Assembly (NCBI RefSeq): GCF_002803605.1
Contig: NZ_PHRG01000003.1
Coordinates: 248,001 to 312,000, forward strand
From: Acinetobacter pseudolwoffii
Lineage (GTDB): Bacteria; Pseudomonadota; Gammaproteobacteria; Pseudomonadales; Moraxellaceae
DNA length: 64,000 nt
Direction of reading: 5' to 3'
Numbering within the stretch: position 1 is the first letter of the stretch; every line of letters begins with the position of its first letter. Positions 11,617 to 17,805 of this stretch are shown in pieces. The notes below the pieces were generated by a model. The model ran no database searches and was not told the DNA's origin. It saw only the letters and a program-made list of their open reading frames with translations. A program made the position numbers and the translations under genes.

Positions 11617-12102
11617 ATGGCGAAGAAAGGTGTTTTATCTCAGGGTACGCATGTATGGATTTTACATGGCGATACTCCAACACTGACAAAGATGGACTGC
11701 GTTAAGGCCTTAGCGCTTGGTGATGACAGTACCACAGAAATCAGTACAACTTGCTTGGAAGAAAAAACCACAGCAACATCGGACTGGGGTTTGACCACAC
11801 CGGGTGAAGGCTCAATTCAAATTGATACCGATCCTAAAAATGCGACTCACATGAAGCTACTGGAACTGGCAGCGGATCGTGCTGAAGTTGGTGTGTATGT
11901 AGGTTGGTCGGATGGTGATGTGCCACCAGAAATTACCGGGAACACCGTAACCCTTCCAGAAGATCGTACATGGTCGTCTTTCCGCGCAATTCTGCGTAAA
12001 GGCTCACCAGTATTTGATGCTGATGCTCTGGTAAACCACACCGTGCCAATGAAGCGCCAAACTGAAGTGACTGATGAATTTAAGGTGGTGATAGGTGGCT
12101 AA
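11617..12102 (+). CDS. major tail (tube) protein
   Basis: The 161-residue product is placed directly after the tail terminator and before the tail chaperones, where siphophages encode the tube protein. It has a beta-rich composition with ISTTCLEEKTTATSDWGLTTPG and a C-terminal RQTEVTDEFKVVIGG, as in lambda gpV-like tube proteins. It has its own binding site (TTGAGGAG) and lies between a terminator and the chaperone gene, fitting high expression. Confidence 0.75.
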   Translation: MAKKGVLSQGTHVWILHGDTPTLTKMDCVKALALGDDSTTEISTTCLEEKTTATSDWGLTTPGEGSIQIDTDPKNATHMKLLELAADRAEVGVYVGWSDGDVPPEITGNTVTLPEDRTWSSFRAILRKGSPVFDADALVNHTVPMKRQTEVTDEFKVVIGG

Positions 12103-12544
12103 GTTAAATACATCCGAACTTTTAGCGCTCTCGAGCACAGCCTTATCCGACCTATCCCCAAAGTCTCCGAAATTCATCATTAATGATGAGGAGTTTGAAG
12201 TAGATATTTTGGTTAAAGCTTTGAGTTACGATGAAGTGACGAATATGTTTAAAGGTGAAGATCCTGAAAAAATCACTGTCGCGGATGTTGTAAAGCGACG
12301 GGTTTTGCTTACAGTCTTTAATGCGGATACAAAGAAGCCACTGTGCTCTACGATTGAAGAGGTTGGAAACCTTCACCCAGCCATTATTGGTGCGATTCAT
12401 GACGCTTCGAATGAAGTGAATGATTTTTTGGGAAAGAACAAATTGAAGTTGAAGAGTACGAACTCTGGTGTGAACTCGTCCTCAACGGAATCGGTGGAAG
12501 AACCATCGAGCAAGCAAAAAAGAAAATCACTCCAAAAGAGCTAA
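12095..12544 (+). CDS. tail assembly chaperone, G-like unshifted product
   Basis: The 149-residue product starts at GTG 12095, overlapping the tube gene by 8 bases. Residues 1-114 look folded. The last 35 residues, which follow a slippery site, are low-complexity Ser/Lys and appear to be the fall-through tail. Tail chaperones of this kind coat the tape measure protein before tube assembly. The other product of this gene is made by a -1 shift and is listed separately. Confidence 0.8.
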   Translation: MAKLNTSELLALSSTALSDLSPKSPKFIINDEEFEVDILVKALSYDEVTNMFKGEDPEKITVADVVKRRVLLTVFNADTKKPLCSTIEEVGNLHPAIIGAIHDASNEVNDFLGKNKLKLKSTNSGVNSSSTESVEEPSSKQKRKSLQKS

Positions 12545-12756
12545 GGATTTGGCAGGCATATCGCAATAGGTATGGCTCATTTAATTTGGGTCGTCGCATA
12601 GAGCAGGGCGCGGGTAACTTATACGCGCTTTATTTCAATGGCAAGGTCGAAGAAGACAAGCGTGTTGATGCTCGTATCTTTATGCCTCATGAAACAATGC
12701 CAGAGCTAACCTTTGAAGAACAGCGCATGCAAGCCATTAAGAAGAAATCAGCGTAG
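12095..12756 (+). CDS. tail assembly chaperone G-T frameshift fusion
   Basis: A -1 ribosomal frameshift near 12424-12436 joins residues 1-114 of the G frame to an open frame that runs without stop to TAG 12754-12756. This adds about 106 residues, for about 220 in all. The downstream frame has no suitable start of its own. Its protein looks real, with EEYELWCELVLNGIGGRTI and RIWQAYRNRYGSFNLGRRI, as expected for the T part. In lambda the GT fusion recruits the tape measure protein. Coordinates span both frames. Confidence 0.85.
12424..12436 (+). promoter_or_regulatory. programmed -1 frameshift slippery site
   Basis: TTTTTTGGGAAAG holds two overlapping X-XXY-YYZ heptamers in the G reading frame: T TTT TTG at 12424-12430 and G GGA AAG at 12430-12436. 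The second is the same heptamer used by lambda G/GT. Both would move ribosomes into the T frame. Confidence 0.85.
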
Positions 12757-12867
12757 GTTGGTTTCTTTTTACAATTTATTTCTTTATTCATATACTTGCC
12801 CTGATGATTTAAAAATATGCGACACAAAATGTCGTTAAATATGTATAGATTTAAAATTAAGGGGTGA

Positions 12868-13662
12868 GTGGTGGGTACAATAGAATTAGATGCACATGTT
12901 GAGGATGCTATGTTACAAGTCCGCATAAACAACACCAGACCAATTGATCTAATTGATTATGCTCAAAGCATGCTGAATTTAGGCAATGAGTATTCTAGTT
13001 TTATTAATAAGACAGATATTCACTTATCCTCTGATGATATAAAACTATATGTAAAAGAAATTCGCACCGGGTCAATAATTACCGAGCTGGTTGCTATAGC
13101 GCCAACGCTGATGCCATTTATGGAACACAGCAATACCGTGCTGGATTTCGCAAACCATATCAAGGTTAGTTTTGATTACTTACTTGGAAAAGGAAGTAAG
13201 CCGCAAGACCTAGATAGGGATGGATTAAAAAGAATCTCCAAGTTTGTTGAGCCGATCGCTAATGATAATGGCTCGGTTATGCAAATTGATGCATCGAATA
13301 ATAAAGGGGAAATTCACATCCACCTTAATAGTGAAGGTGCAAATGCTATCCAGAATAGAGCACATAAAGAGCTTGAGAAAATGAAAGAACCGGTTATTGG
13401 GCTTCATAAACAAGTGGTTTTATATTGGTCGCAAGCTAGAAATGATAATAAGAAAGGCGACAAGGCGGTAATTGAAAGCATTTCGGATAGAGAAGTTAAG
13501 GTTATCTATGATACTGAAGAGCTTAAGTACCGGATGATTCACGAGCAACCACATATATTTGATACTGCATACGTAGTAGATGTGTATGTTGAAACCATAA
13601 GGGATAAGCCAGTAGTTTATAAAATTGTAGCCTTTCACGATACCGTGGATATTCCAGACTAA
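12868..13662 (+). CDS. hypothetical cargo protein between chaperone and tape measure
   Basis: This 264-residue protein is unrelated to tail assembly as far as can be seen. Residues 1-60 are helical. A strand-like IKLYVKEIRTGSIITELV and a moderately hydrophobic patch (AIAPTLMPFM, about 85-95) come next. A middle region and a beta-rich C-terminal part (about 185-264) follow. This layout parallels the protein at 416-1480. It has a binding site (AAGGGGTGAG) and its own terminator, so it is a self-contained cargo unit. Function unknown; phage exclusion is a guess. Confidence 0.7.
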   Translation: MVGTIELDAHVEDAMLQVRINNTRPIDLIDYAQSMLNLGNEYSSFINKTDIHLSSDDIKLYVKEIRTGSIITELVAIAPTLMPFMEHSNTVLDFANHIKVSFDYLLGKGSKPQDLDRDGLKRISKFVEPIANDNGSVMQIDASNNKGEIHIHLNSEGANAIQNRAHKELEKMKEPVIGLHKQVVLYWSQARNDNKKGDKAVIESISDREVKVIYDTEELKYRMIHEQPHIFDTAYVVDVYVETIRDKPVVYKIVAFHDTVDIPD

Positions 13663-13677
13663 TAATTACATCAAACC

Positions 13678-13702
13678 AAACCACTCCCCGGAGTGGTTTT
13701 TT
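13678..13702 (+). terminator. intrinsic terminator of cargo unit 1
   Basis: AAACCACTCC and GGAGTGGTTT arms form a 10-base-pair stem with a very short loop, followed by T residues. Confidence 0.75.
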
Positions 13703-13710
13703 CATTCTGG

Positions 13711-13722
13711 AATTAGTATCTT
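13711..13722 (+). repeat. 12-base repeat AATTAGTATCTT, copy 1
   Basis: The same 12 bases recur at 14471-14482. Each copy lies just after a terminator and about 27-31 bases before the next cargo gene start, so it is probably part of a shared promoter or operator. Confidence 0.5.
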
Positions 13723-13748
13723 ATGATTTCTTATAAGAGGGAAATCAC

Positions 13749-14432
13749 GTGAAAAAATTATTAATTGCAGGGGCGATTGGTTTTGGGCTGGTTGGGTGTG
13801 CCTCACCGGCATATAATTATCAAGCAACTCCAAAACACGTTAGTAAACCACCTTTGAATACAGTAAATACTGCATATGTTGGCGATAAGATGTTGGAGCA
13901 GGGGATATTTGTTGATCGGGAGGCTTTGCACGTTCCATCTAGCACCAAGCTTAGTTTCGCCTACACATTAACCACGGGTTACTATCAAAAAAGCGGTGAG
14001 GATGCGAAAGGTAATTACTACCTCCCATTAAACAACATCCCGAATGGCGGAATGGTTCAAAAAAGCGCTTTAGCAGATCCTTACAAAGCGGTAATGCTGG
14101 GAGGTGATGGAAAGTTATGTGTTATCACAGCATTTAACGTTAAAAGTTGTGGTGGGGAGCATCAAGCAAAACAAACTGTAATTGGTATTGCTTCCGATAA
14201 CTCATTCCAGCAAACATTAATTTATAGCGGTAAGGTGGGGAATAAAATTAATGTTGGCTATCGAGAGTTTTCCAGCAATTTAGCGCGTCCTGCCTTTAAT
14301 AATGATGTAGAGTACGACCTTAATCAATCCAAGCAAATTGGATATAAAGGCGCCCTGCTAGAGGTTGTGGATGCAAACAACCAGAATATTACTTATAAGG
14401 TTTTAAGAAACTTTAATAAGGTTGAAGATTAG
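13749..14432 (+). CDS. prophage-encoded lipoprotein
   Basis: The 227-residue product has a lipoprotein signal peptide: a KK start, a hydrophobic core and the lipobox GLVGC with Cys17. The mature part is beta-rich with two further Cys residues (LCVITAFNVKSCGG) that could form a disulphide. It has its own binding site (AAGAGGG) and a terminator. Outer-membrane lipoproteins in this prophage slot often block superinfection by other phages, but that is only inferred from position and export signal. Confidence 0.8.
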   Translation: MKKLLIAGAIGFGLVGCASPAYNYQATPKHVSKPPLNTVNTAYVGDKMLEQGIFVDREALHVPSSTKLSFAYTLTTGYYQKSGEDAKGNYYLPLNNIPNGGMVQKSALADPYKAVMLGGDGKLCVITAFNVKSCGGEHQAKQTVIGIASDNSFQQTLIYSGKVGNKINVGYREFSSNLARPAFNNDVEYDLNQSKQIGYKGALLEVVDANNQNITYKVLRNFNKVED

Positions 14433-14437
14433 TGTAG

Positions 14438-14463
14438 ACCGCCCAAGTGGCGGTTTCTTTTTA
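14438..14463 (+). terminator. intrinsic terminator of cargo unit 2
   Basis: ACCGCC and GGCGGT arms with a 5-base loop are followed by a T-rich tract. Confidence 0.7.
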
Positions 14464-14470
14464 TCCCGAT

Positions 14471-14482
14471 AATTAGTATCTT
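14471..14482 (+). repeat. 12-base repeat AATTAGTATCTT, copy 2
   Basis: This is identical to 13711-13722 and occupies the equivalent place before the third cargo gene. Confidence 0.5.
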
Positions 14483-14512
14483 GTCCTGAATAACAAATAT
14501 TTGGGGTGAGTT

Positions 14513-15166
14513 ATGGCTATAAAGCCTTGCAAGGAATGCGGTGCGCCGGTAAGTGATAAGGCTGAAAGTTGCCCGATGTGCGGAGCAAAACAACCAAAAG
14601 CAACCAGTGTTTTGACTTGGGTGTGTGTGGGTATTTTGGGGTTGGCTGCCATAATTTGGATGTATTCTGATAAGGCACCTGGTACATCATCAGGGGCGGT
14701 GTCGACAACTCAAGCAACGGAATCGGAAAATGTAAAACCAAAAAATTGGCAATACGAGACATCCAAAGATGAGATGCGAGGTATTGAGTCTAAATTTGCA
14801 ACCACAGTTAGCACCAATACGGTTGATTTTGACTTTCCATACAATGGTGGATCAAAGTTGATACTAGCTTTAAGAAAACGCGGATCAGAGGTTGATGTGA
14901 TGGTAAGTATCACCAAGGGTCAAATTCTTTGTGGAATACAAAATTGCGAGGCCGCCTTTAAATTCGATGATGGCGCAGTGCAATCTGTAACCATGTCTGA
15001 GCCCGATAACCATTCTTCGGATTTATTATTTATTGCTTATGATAAGACCGAAAGTAAGATTATAAGCCAGTTAAAAAATAGCAAAAAGCTAGTAATCGAA
15101 ATCCCTTTTTATCAAGAGGGTAGAAAGCAATTTACATTTGATGTGAGTGGCTTGGAATGGAATTAA
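14513..15166 (+). CDS. zinc-ribbon membrane protein, prophage cargo
   Basis: This 217-residue protein opens with a zinc ribbon (CKECGAPVSDKAESCPMCG: two CxxC pairs). One transmembrane helix follows at about residues 33-50 (VLTWVCVGILGLAAIIWMY). The C-terminal 130-residue beta-rich domain probably lies on the far side of the membrane and includes two cysteines (LCGIQNC). It has a GGGGTGAG binding site and its own terminator. The domain order suggests a small membrane sensor or inhibitor, but no function is known. Confidence 0.75.
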   Translation: MAIKPCKECGAPVSDKAESCPMCGAKQPKATSVLTWVCVGILGLAAIIWMYSDKAPGTSSGAVSTTQATESENVKPKNWQYETSKDEMRGIESKFATTVSTNTVDFDFPYNGGSKLILALRKRGSEVDVMVSITKGQILCGIQNCEAAFKFDDGAVQSVTMSEPDNHSSDLLFIAYDKTESKIISQLKNSKKLVIEIPFYQEGRKQFTFDVSGLEWN

Positions 15167-15187
15167 TTACATAGAAGATAAACAACA

Positions 15188-15211
15188 AAGCGTCCGAAGG
15201 GGCGCTTTTTT
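15188..15211 (+). terminator. intrinsic terminator of cargo unit 3
   Basis: AAGCGTCC and GGGCGCTT arms (one GU pair) with loop GAAG are followed by a T run, directly before the tape measure gene. Confidence 0.75.
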
Positions 15212-15228
15212 ATTGCCTAGAGGTTTAT

Positions 15229-17805
15229 ATGAGCACCAAACTTGGAACCCTCACCTTAGATTTAATTGCTAAGATTGGTGGCTTTACTGGGCCAATCAGA
15301 GATGCTGAAAGACAAACACAATCCAGTTTTGACAAAATGCGCAAGCATGTAAATACCTACGGGACAATGGCGGTTGCTAGTGCTGCTGCTGTTGGCGCTG
15401 GCATCCTTGCAATGGCAAACGAATATGCAAATGCCGCTCGTGAGCTACAGACTTTTGCTTCCATCTCAAATACAACAACACAAGAATTTCAGAGAATGGC
15501 TGTGGGCGCTGAGACCATGGGTATCAGCTCGGAAAAGTTATCTGACCAGTTAAAGGACTTTAATGAAAAGTTAGGTGAGTTCATCACGATTGGCTCTGGT
15601 GGTGCGGTTGATTTCTTTGAGCAGATCGCGATTAAAACAGAGGGTTCAGCGGAGGCTGCAAGAAAGTTAGCGCTTGAGATGCAGAATCTTTCTGGCCCTA
15701 AAGCACTTCAACTCTATGTAGATAAACTTGAAGAAGCAGGCGTTACTCAGCAACAAATGTCTTTCTATTTGGAGAGCATGGCATCCGATACAACCAACCT
15801 TATTCCACTCTTAAGAGATGGTGGTAAAGGTTTTGAATATTGGGCTGATGCAGCTGAGCGTGCTGGTGTAATCATGGATGAGCACGCCATAGAAAAGGCA
15901 AATGAGCTTCGTGTTCAAATGGATTTGCTTAATCTTCAACTGCAAGGCGTTAAAAATCAATTTATTCAAGGTTTAATGCCAGCACTTGTGTCAGTTGGCG
16001 ATGGTTTGTCTGATGCTACATTGCAAACTAATCTAATGTCAGATGCCGGTGAAACACTTGGTGAGGTGTTTAAGGGCGTCGCAGCAACAGGAATGGGTGT
16101 TTATGCTGTTGTAAAAATGCTTTCCAATTCTATCGCGGGGCTTGCGGCTCAAGCTGTTCAGTCCAAGCAGATGGTAGATAAGGCGGCAGAAGGTCGAGGA
16201 GTTCTTGCTAATCTTCCGGGCGTGAAGGCTCTCAAGGCACTAACCTTGGGTGTGGCTAATGCTCGAACAAATCCTGATAGCGCAGTGCAAATGGCGGTAC
16301 AAGATAACGCTCAGGTCGCAGAGGATGTGGCAAACTCTATTAATCGTATTTATAACGATGCTGTTAATCAGTCTGTTTCAGCTATGGCGAAAATCCAAAA
16401 CAGTCAGGCTGGTGTAACAAAAGGCTCTGATGAGTGGATTAAAAAACAAAACGAAGCAGCCAAAGCCACTAAGGAAAACAACAAGGCTCAGCAAGAATTA
16501 AATAGGTTGCTTGAAGAGCAAGCCCGGGCGCGTGATTCAATCTCCTATGATTACATGGATGATTTTGCGAAATTCTCTGTTGATCTTAAACGCGAACTTG
16601 AGGAAATTCAAAAAGCCAATTTCGGGTCACAAGAATCTGAATATCTAGCCAAAGCAAAAGCTCGTTATGAATATGAAGAGGAGATGTATCTTCGCCAGAT
16701 CACTGAGGAAATTAATACCTTTAAGTGGTCTGAAGAACAGAAGCTTGATTATTTTTATGAGACTCAGCGAATTATTGTGAGTGAGTCCGGAAAATACAAT
16801 GATGAGCTTAAGCAATTAAAACTCAAGGCGCTTGATGAGCAGTACGCAATCGAACTTCAAAAAGCTCGTTTCCATGCTCAAAATGTACAACAGGCCATGC
16901 GAGAAAGTATTAAAGGCCTTTCTTATGGTGTCGATGAAATCTTTGCTCAAGCCACAATGTCACCACAGGACTATGATCGCTGGTCACTGGAAAATGATCG
17001 CTCAAATGCTCAATTGGGTTTAAAGAATGAGCGCGTTAGGGTTGAGCAGGACATCATGACCAGTGATGCCTATTCGACTGATGATGAGCGCTATGCTGCG
17101 TTATTAGAGGCGCATCAAGAGTATCGTGATGCAATGGCTGCCATTGATGTTGATTATCAACAAAAGACGAAAGATTTGGAGTTTCAGCAATATAACGAAA
17201 AAATGGGCATGTACAGCGAAATGTTATCCCAGGCTAGTTCGATTTGGGGCAACATGACTCAACTCGTCAAGGATAGTCAGGGTGAGCAGTCTGGCGCATT
17301 TAAGGCGATGTTTTTAATTCAGCAAGGAATGGCCGCTGCCCAAGCAATTATTTATGCTAACGTCGCATCTGCGGCAGCGTTAGCACCACCTCCTATTGGT
17401 TTAGGGCCGGTTGCTGGTGCTCCACTTTCATCCTTGATCAAGATCAATGGATATATGAGCGCAGGTATTATTGCCGGCCAAACCATTGCAGGCATGGCCC
17501 ACGACGGTATCGACAATATTCCGAAAGAAGGCACATGGCTGCTAGATAAGGGTGAACGTGTTGTTGATAGTCGGACGAATGCTGACTTGAAGAACATGAT
17601 TGCCAATAACGATGGTGGCGGCCCTCAAATCAATATCAATGTCCCACCAGGCTACACAGCTGAACAAAGTCGAGGCGCTGACGGTGCTGTGACGATTGAT
17701 ATTGTAGAGAAGCGGATCAAGCAATCTTGGGGAAATCTAGGTAATCCAAACTCGTATGAGTCAAAGCAGGTACAACGCAATACCACAGCGGGAGTTAAAC
17801 GATAG
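15229..17805 (+). CDS. tail tape measure protein
   Basis: With 858 residues this is the second-longest phage gene here, in the standard place after the chaperones. The N-terminus (LTLDLIAKIGGFTGPIRDAE) is the usual tape measure opening. It is followed by an Ala/Gly-rich hydrophobic stretch (about residues 45-65) and long helical regions (about 400-700). A second hydrophobic segment near residues 685-750 (AQAIIYANVASAAALAPPP) may enter the host membrane. It sets tail length and is chaperoned by G/GT. An AGAGG binding site supports the ATG. Confidence 0.9.
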   Translation: MSTKLGTLTLDLIAKIGGFTGPIRDAERQTQSSFDKMRKHVNTYGTMAVASAAAVGAGILAMANEYANAARELQTFASISNTTTQEFQRMAVGAETMGISSEKLSDQLKDFNEKLGEFITIGSGGAVDFFEQIAIKTEGSAEAARKLALEMQNLSGPKALQLYVDKLEEAGVTQQQMSFYLESMASDTTNLIPLLRDGGKGFEYWADAAERAGVIMDEHAIEKANELRVQMDLLNLQLQGVKNQFIQGLMPALVSVGDGLSDATLQTNLMSDAGETLGEVFKGVAATGMGVYAVVKMLSNSIAGLAAQAVQSKQMVDKAAEGRGVLANLPGVKALKALTLGVANARTNPDSAVQMAVQDNAQVAEDVANSINRIYNDAVNQSVSAMAKIQNSQAGVTKGSDEWIKKQNEAAKATKENNKAQQELNRLLEEQARARDSISYDYMDDFAKFSVDLKRELEEIQKANFGSQESEYLAKAKARYEYEEEMYLRQITEEINTFKWSEEQKLDYFYETQRIIVSESGKYNDELKQLKLKALDEQYAIELQKARFHAQNVQQAMRESIKGLSYGVDEIFAQATMSPQDYDRWSLENDRSNAQLGLKNERVRVEQDIMTSDAYSTDDERYAALLEAHQEYRDAMAAIDVDYQQKTKDLEFQQYNEKMGMYSEMLSQASSIWGNMTQLVKDSQGEQSGAFKAMFLIQQGMAAAQAIIYANVASAAALAPPPIGLGPVAGAPLSSLIKINGYMSAGIIAGQTIAGMAHDGIDNIPKEGTWLLDKGERVVDSRTNADLKNMIANNDGGGPQININVPPGYTAEQSRGADGAVTIDIVEKRIKQSWGNLGNPNSYESKQVQRNTTAGVKR

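Follow-up and report, generated by a model that had tools for sequence, protein, structure and literature searches.

In phage lambda the tail assembly chaperones are made in a proportion of about 30 gpG to 1 gpGT; the binding partner of G is the tape measure protein, that of T the tail tube protein, and the same account describes both gpG and gpGT as absent from the mature virion (PMC5009743). In E. coli, and given stimulators, the lambda slip word, G_GGA_AAG, has been ranked in the top three heptamers by efficiency (PMC4066793). For the tail genes E/E+E' of phage P2 the published -1 site is TTTTTTG (PMC3091744, PMC3931495). Frameshifting of the P2 type is described as 2- to 3-fold more efficient than that of lambda (PMC5009743), and passages of one report state that no downstream hairpins were found in P2-like phages and mention their absence in P2 as well (PMC3091744). 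In the P2 record E runs from 431, TTTTTTG occupies 679-685 and the shift is annotated at 686, one base after the word.

The locus considered here lies in the window, by which we mean the whole stretch of 64,000 nucleotides of Acinetobacter pseudolwoffii DNA that was analysed, taken from a single contig in a bacterial genome of 3.1 Mb. The first ~25 kb of the window form a siphovirus-type structural module, in which the terminase subunits, portal, head maturation protease, major head protein, adaptor, neck protein and tail terminator are followed by the major tail protein, G, T, three small genes, the tape measure protein and more tail genes. Two overlapping genes, the second of them in the -1 frame, are thereby found between the major tail protein and the tape measure, and the nearest named phage relatives infect Acinetobacter. 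We put at about 95% the probability that, as the sequence evidence suggests, a siphovirus-type prophage here uses programmed -1 ribosomal frameshifting to express G and T as its tail chaperone pair. An earlier note, made from the letters of the window, had claimed such a G-T pair, and profile matches, synteny, purifying selection on the shifted frame and in-phase conservation of the heptamer all support that claim.

Table 1 Features of the G-T locus and its surroundings, in window coordinates.
Feature	Position	Strand	Basis or remark
Major tail (tube) protein gene, upstream partner	11617-12102	+	PF16460 Phage_TTP_11, E 7.8e-42; phrog_158 major tail protein
G, tail assembly chaperone, 149 aa, GTG start, unshifted product	12095-12544	+	phrog_1749, PF16459
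First in-phase slippery heptamer, T_TTT_TTG	12424-12430	+	Word and phase of P2 E/E+E'; optional among relatives
T, -1 frame, stop-to-stop ORF, 110 codons including stop	12424-12756	+	phrog_5297, phrog_337, pN/pS
Second in-phase slippery heptamer, G_GGA_AAG	12430-12436	+	Lambda word; conserved shift site
Zero-frame tail of G, overlapping T; low-complexity, weakly constrained	12437-12544	+	pN/pS, entropy, pLDDT
Cargo gene 1	12868-13662		phrog_9226; weak NCBIfam match below cut-off, 'putative phage structural protein'
Cargo gene 2	13749-14432		phrog_1353; lipoprotein-like N-terminus
Cargo gene 3	14513-15166		Zinc ribbon
Terminator-like hairpins, one after each cargo gene	13678-13699, 14436-14456, 15187-15208		
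Tape measure protein gene, expected coating target of G	15229-17805	+	phrog_1506, E 1.2e-119; phrog_2854, E 3.6e-110

In the proposed mechanism, most ribosomes would translate G as far as the stop at 12544 and so make a 149-residue chaperone of 16.3 kDa. At G_GGA_AAG a few percent, a rate taken over from lambda, would shift the pairing of their P- and A-site tRNAs back by one base and continue in the T frame, giving a 220-residue G-T fusion of 25.0 kDa, while T_TTT_TTG would offer a second, optional place for the same shift and the same protein. By analogy with lambda, G would form a coat on the tape measure protein, and recruitment of the tail tube protein would fall to the T part of the fusion. 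The junction peptide of the fusion is predicted to read ...NDFLGK/EQIEVEEYELWC.... Both frames encode Gly-Lys, so that under the standard two-tRNA model slips at the two heptamers would lead to an identical 220-residue fusion, and neither junction peptides nor mass spectrometry could separate the two words.

From 12413 onward the codons of the G frame are GAA GTG AAT GAT TTT TTG GGA AAG AAC. The earlier note had read this site as T-TTT-TTG-GGA-AAG and had seen in it two overlapping slippery heptamers, the second identical to that of lambda. The codons GAT TTT TTG GGA AAG confirm the reading; T_TTT_TTG and G_GGA_AAG are both in the G phase and have a single G in common, and the second is the lambda word in the same phase as in lambda. 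An X_XXY_YYZ heptamer in the G phase is therefore present inside the overlap, in the form of G_GGA_AAG. By pattern alone there is a third such word, T_TTG_GGA at 12427-12433, between the two heptamers. Base composition gives an expectation of 0.0024 in-phase GGGAAAG words for the 39-codon G/T overlap, and the 13-mer TTTTTTGGGAAAG has one copy in the window and is contained in 0 of 100 shuffles.

Profile searches placed G in a tail assembly chaperone family (phrog_1749, E 2.4e-17), with a further match to PF16459 Phage_TAC_13 at E 8.3e-5, below the Pfam cut-off. T falls in the minor tail protein T family, matching phrog_5297 (E 3.4e-20) and phrog_337 (E 1.3e-14), both labelled tail protein, as well as being a homologue of HK022 gp14; its match to PF06223 Phage_tail_T (Minor tail protein T) has E 0.0062, below the Pfam cut-off. 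NCBIfam gave no match for either protein. In the G structure predicted by AlphaFold2 the confident core stops at the shift point, with residues 1-15 and 113-149 at pLDDT below 50. The zero-frame tail has an entropy of 3.04 bits, compared with means of 3.66 in G and 3.72 in T for windows of the same length, and consists to 63% of Ser/Lys/Asn/Thr; the unshifted frame past the site is thus of low complexity, as had been said of it.

The -1 frame had been described as open for about 106 codons, without a usable start of its own and folded-looking. Between its stops it does extend over 110 codons, of which 106 residues lie past Gly-Lys, and the earliest ATG, GTG or TTG in the T frame is a TTG at 12586 that would leave 56 residues. 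For the folded look the support is moderate, coming from an all-helical AlphaFold2 model with a mean pLDDT of 68.9. Fold searches with the predicted G and T structures gave no match at E <= 0.001: G found none in the PDB, and the best match for T among viral models was a 'Minor tail T domain-containing protein' at E 0.14. Sequence searches against solved structures returned nothing meaningful (best E 0.44 and 0.34).

Lambda gpG/gpGT resembles the window locus in the order tube protein, G, T, tape measure and in having G_GGA_AAG in the same phase. It differs in that T_TTT_TTG adjoins the site here, an addition relative to lambda, and in that its tape measure gene overlaps T, whereas three further genes intervene here. 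The label 'lambda-type' given in the earlier note accordingly holds for mechanism and gene order; by sequence, T is closer to the HK022/D3 kind. An alignment with lambda gpT-like proteins had been proposed as a check, and direct comparison of the profiles of the G and T families with lambda gpG and gpT (hmmsearch, hhalign) gave nothing significant. T is homologous to its counterpart in HK022 gp13/gp14 (53% identity over 62 residues) and 40% identical to that of D3 orf17/18 (HK97-type), both of which have GGGAAAG in phase. Unlike the window, they have no upstream heptamer, the codons before the site being GAT CTG in HK022 and AAC CTG in D3. Acinetobacter phage fEg-Aba01, among the nearest named relatives, has a T that is 57% identical and GGGAAAG in phase, but TTT TCG before the site and hence a single heptamer, and its T is annotated as a separate hypothetical protein. 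P2 E/E+E' is similar in its -1 shift at TTTTTTG, in the same phase as the first heptamer here; in P2, however, the word is followed by TCGCCG and there is no GGGAAAG, and P2 is a myovirus, likened by its site alone. Judged by these likenesses, the window locus is a further case of the already known lambda/HK97-type G-T frameshift.

We analysed constraint in the window and 10 close relatives (n=11). Within the overlap, variable columns fell 5, 1 and 14 times on T-frame codon positions 1, 2 and 3 (35 columns each), and pN/pS was 0.09 in the T frame versus 0.67 in the zero frame. In the T-only stretch the corresponding values were 0.13 in the T frame and 1.61 in the other frame. The 13-nt site was invariant in all 11 sequences, so both the heptamer and the -1 frame are kept among relatives under purifying selection. 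The earlier note had named, as one part of what would refute its reading, a downstream frame not conserved among related phages; that frame proves to be constrained. By this pattern of substitution the shifted frame is a real gene, and we infer that T is expressed as the C-terminal part of the 220-residue G-T fusion.

T could instead be translated alone, by internal initiation or by reinitiation after G, with no fusion made. This is how existing records tend to present it: 11 of 13 G-T-type phage records annotate the T frame as a gene of its own, and the ten of these 11 that were checked (all but lambda) end at the T stop, their beginnings lying 14 to 71 codons past the point where the frame opens. 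However, the best-conserved N-terminal stretch of T (within residues 11-45, WCELVLNGIGGRT and what comes after it) precedes the first start codon at 12586, the overlap ahead of that start is constrained in the T frame, and GGGAAAG is kept in phase among relatives, all of which make separate translation very improbable. Under the preferred reading, expression by ribosomal frameshifting, the fusion would be a gene product missed by start-codon-based annotation, here and in the related phage records examined. The absence of T from start-based gene calls, asserted in the earlier note, is borne out in that T is not in the list of ORFs of at least 60 aa and that a joined G-T gene appears in the feature table of 0 of the 13 records. 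The record collection can display such joins, since the P2 record has a joined E+E'. Only one of the 13, that of HK022, carries a note presuming a frameshift, and the record of SC_8_H2H8_2017 has neither a G nor a T gene.

A relative of T (E <= 0.001) was found in 28 of 175 genomes of the same genus, the window's own counted. The G-T overlap was then compared in two sets of loci. In the first, of 61 loci taken from the window, genomes of the genus, viral contigs and named phages, GGGAAAG was present in phase in 57, the window included. In three of the scans behind the large set the best 80 matches were kept, and the set is biased towards relatives of the queries; its loci, at least 320, formed 133 clusters at 90% DNA identity, and among the matches listed 116 of these clusters had GGGAAAG in phase. 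Another heptamer known from such genes or from IS elements was present in 10 of the 17 remaining clusters (L058, L064, L110, L210, L212, L222, L256, L268, L308 and L322), namely GGGAAAA in four, AAAAAAG in three, both in one, CCCAAAG in one and AAAAAAC in one. L050 and L216 read G_GGG_AAG, L168 and L203 have no standard heptamer, and the overlap search was misplaced in L183 and L205, whose T-frame ORFs span 269 and 255 codons. The sequence was inspected for 12 of the 17 clusters, L222, L256, L268, L308 and L322 being assigned from the match listing. In-phase GGGAAAG thus appears to be a strong but not absolute rule across G-T loci.

The last of the 17, L030, was considered as a counterexample, having a T without the site and a start codon near the T beginning, and was rejected. 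In L048, a longer stretch of the same contig, there is no G beside T, the genes directly upstream lie on the opposite strand and the tape measure ORF is 538 aa long, and for these reasons L030 reads as a probable decayed prophage. The remnant, at L048 2556-2876 (minus strand) and flanks, also keeps T and a gene related to the lipoprotein-like cargo gene of the window. Separately, a related G-T junction, in L212, has two in-phase words that likewise overlap, G_GGA_AAA and A_AAA_AAG (677-686).

The six-T run of the window lies exactly at the frame junction, and RNA polymerase slipping on it would give a fusion from edited transcripts rather than from shifting ribosomes. Polymerase slippage normally requires longer runs. 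Among the matches listed, 107 of the 116 GGGAAAG clusters have no TTTTTTG directly before the site, and L090, L109 and L147 keep Phe-Leu there without a T6 run. We consider an origin of the fusion in edited transcripts to be exceedingly improbable, and retain the ribosomal shift.

The two words stand in tandem in 9 of the 116 GGGAAAG clusters among the matches listed, and no other heptamer abuts GGGAAAG in the same manner in these 116. In all nine, Asn or Asp, Phe and Leu precede Gly-Lys, and [N/D]-Phe-Leu contexts spell T_TTT_TTG in 9 of 12 clusters among the matches listed. The account to which we incline is that the tandem is pure chance, Phe-Leu ahead of an obligatory GGA AAG being often written as T_TTT_TTG in AT-rich phages, with only G_GGA_AAG at work. 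Codon use was examined where GC is below 47%, in 72 of the 116 clusters, which include all 12 Phe-Leu contexts. Codon use alone predicts T_TTT_TTG in 27% of [N/D]-Phe-Leu contexts from the window genes, 32% from the other codons at the site and 39% from G genes. Against chance, 9 of 12 has P 0.0007, 0.003 and 0.013 under these three expectations, values that presume independence of the clusters. That independence does not hold: T is 83-87% identical between several of them, and a count by eye from the identity matrix gives roughly six independent lineages. The same residues elsewhere in long ORFs of the same loci read T_TTT_TTG in 0 of 3 cases, too few to weigh.

Close relatives with Phe-Leu but no upstream heptamer also speak for chance. 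Two single-site loci, L090 (TTT CTG) and L109 (TTC TTG), have a T that is 94% and 82% identical, respectively, to that of the double-site L102, and a third, L147 (TTC TTG), is 73% identical in T to the double-site L053. Since all three keep GGGAAAG and have Phe-Leu in synonymous codons, the upstream T_TTT_TTG is optional. In passages of a survey of slippery motifs, U_UUU_UUG is efficient for eukaryotes and is not among the efficient E. coli motifs (PMC4066793). On the other side, T_TTT_TTG is the frameshift word of the P2 tail genes. It is here perhaps mildly favoured, but it does not behave as a conserved site of the P2 type, the conserved word in these loci being GGGAAAG.

The earlier note had suggested that the tandem sites could raise or tune the shift rate; relatives do without the first heptamer. 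A less likely alternative to chance, which we hold to be doubtful, is a two-step slip site, in which the abutting P2 and lambda words would give the ribosome two successive chances of making the same fusion. If so, synonymous changes at Phe and Leu would dial the ratio of G to G-T, and with it the yield of tail assembly, up or down, and the differences of L102 from L090 and L109, and of L053 from L147, would be tuning events. These natural single- and double-heptamer versions, which differ synonymously, provide a ready comparison of whether overlapping slippery words add up. In the open-licence literature, titles and abstract openings described no double slippery site in a phage tail gene; searches of the same literature for a TTTTTTG frameshift in phage tails returned the P2 site only, and those for a programmed frameshift or slippery site in Acinetobacter phage tails returned nothing, each of which is weak evidence of absence. 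Our claim for the tandem is a modest one, namely that it represents natural variation on a known theme and not a new mechanism.

Candidate stimulators were sought on both sides of the site. Downstream in the window, the folding of 80- and 115-nt stretches does not surpass that of shuffles (z -0.45 and -0.34). For a survey, 41 representatives were chosen from the 61 loci, with single-base shuffles for folding; the downstream 60 nt had a mean z of -0.26 across the 41 (+0.18 in the window), and 3 of 41 were below -2. Upstream, anti-Shine-Dalgarno pairing in the window is average, half of the background positions being as strong (0.50). Overall, strong upstream pairing is slightly in excess among the 41 representatives (KS P 0.015, a value that ignores relatedness). 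In L002, L009-L012, L049, L055, L061 and L062 a GAGGT, absent in the window, ends ~9-12 nt before GGGAAAG, and in those relatives it pairs strongly with the anti-Shine-Dalgarno. We take this placement to resemble the dnaX arrangement.

The T proteins of L017 and L013 have the same C-terminal halves and different N-terminal halves, and T of L040-L044 has nearly the whole C-terminus of the window's (ELTFEEQRMQAIKKKS) in common; on these grounds T seems to recombine internally. In L042, L043 and L044, T is 56-57% identical to that of the window and G just 24-27%, so that G and T modules appear to have been reassorted around the shift site. In L046 (CANQXU010000047.1, by its title a Paenochrobactrum MAG), identity to the window is 95% for T and 100%, over 200 residues, for the start of the tape measure; the contig is possibly misbinned.

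Among relatives, T and the matched start of the tape measure are 4 bp apart at the least (L019) and about 2.5 kb at the most (L045), the genes in between differ, and the region looks for this reason like a variable cargo site in the tail operon. The window genes in 12757-15228 had no match in a defence-system library. Between 12700 and 15300 there are 7 terminator-like sites, against a shuffle mean of 1.7, and promoter-like sites are not in excess (4 versus 8.3). The three cargo genes are possibly of the moron type, with transcription of their own.
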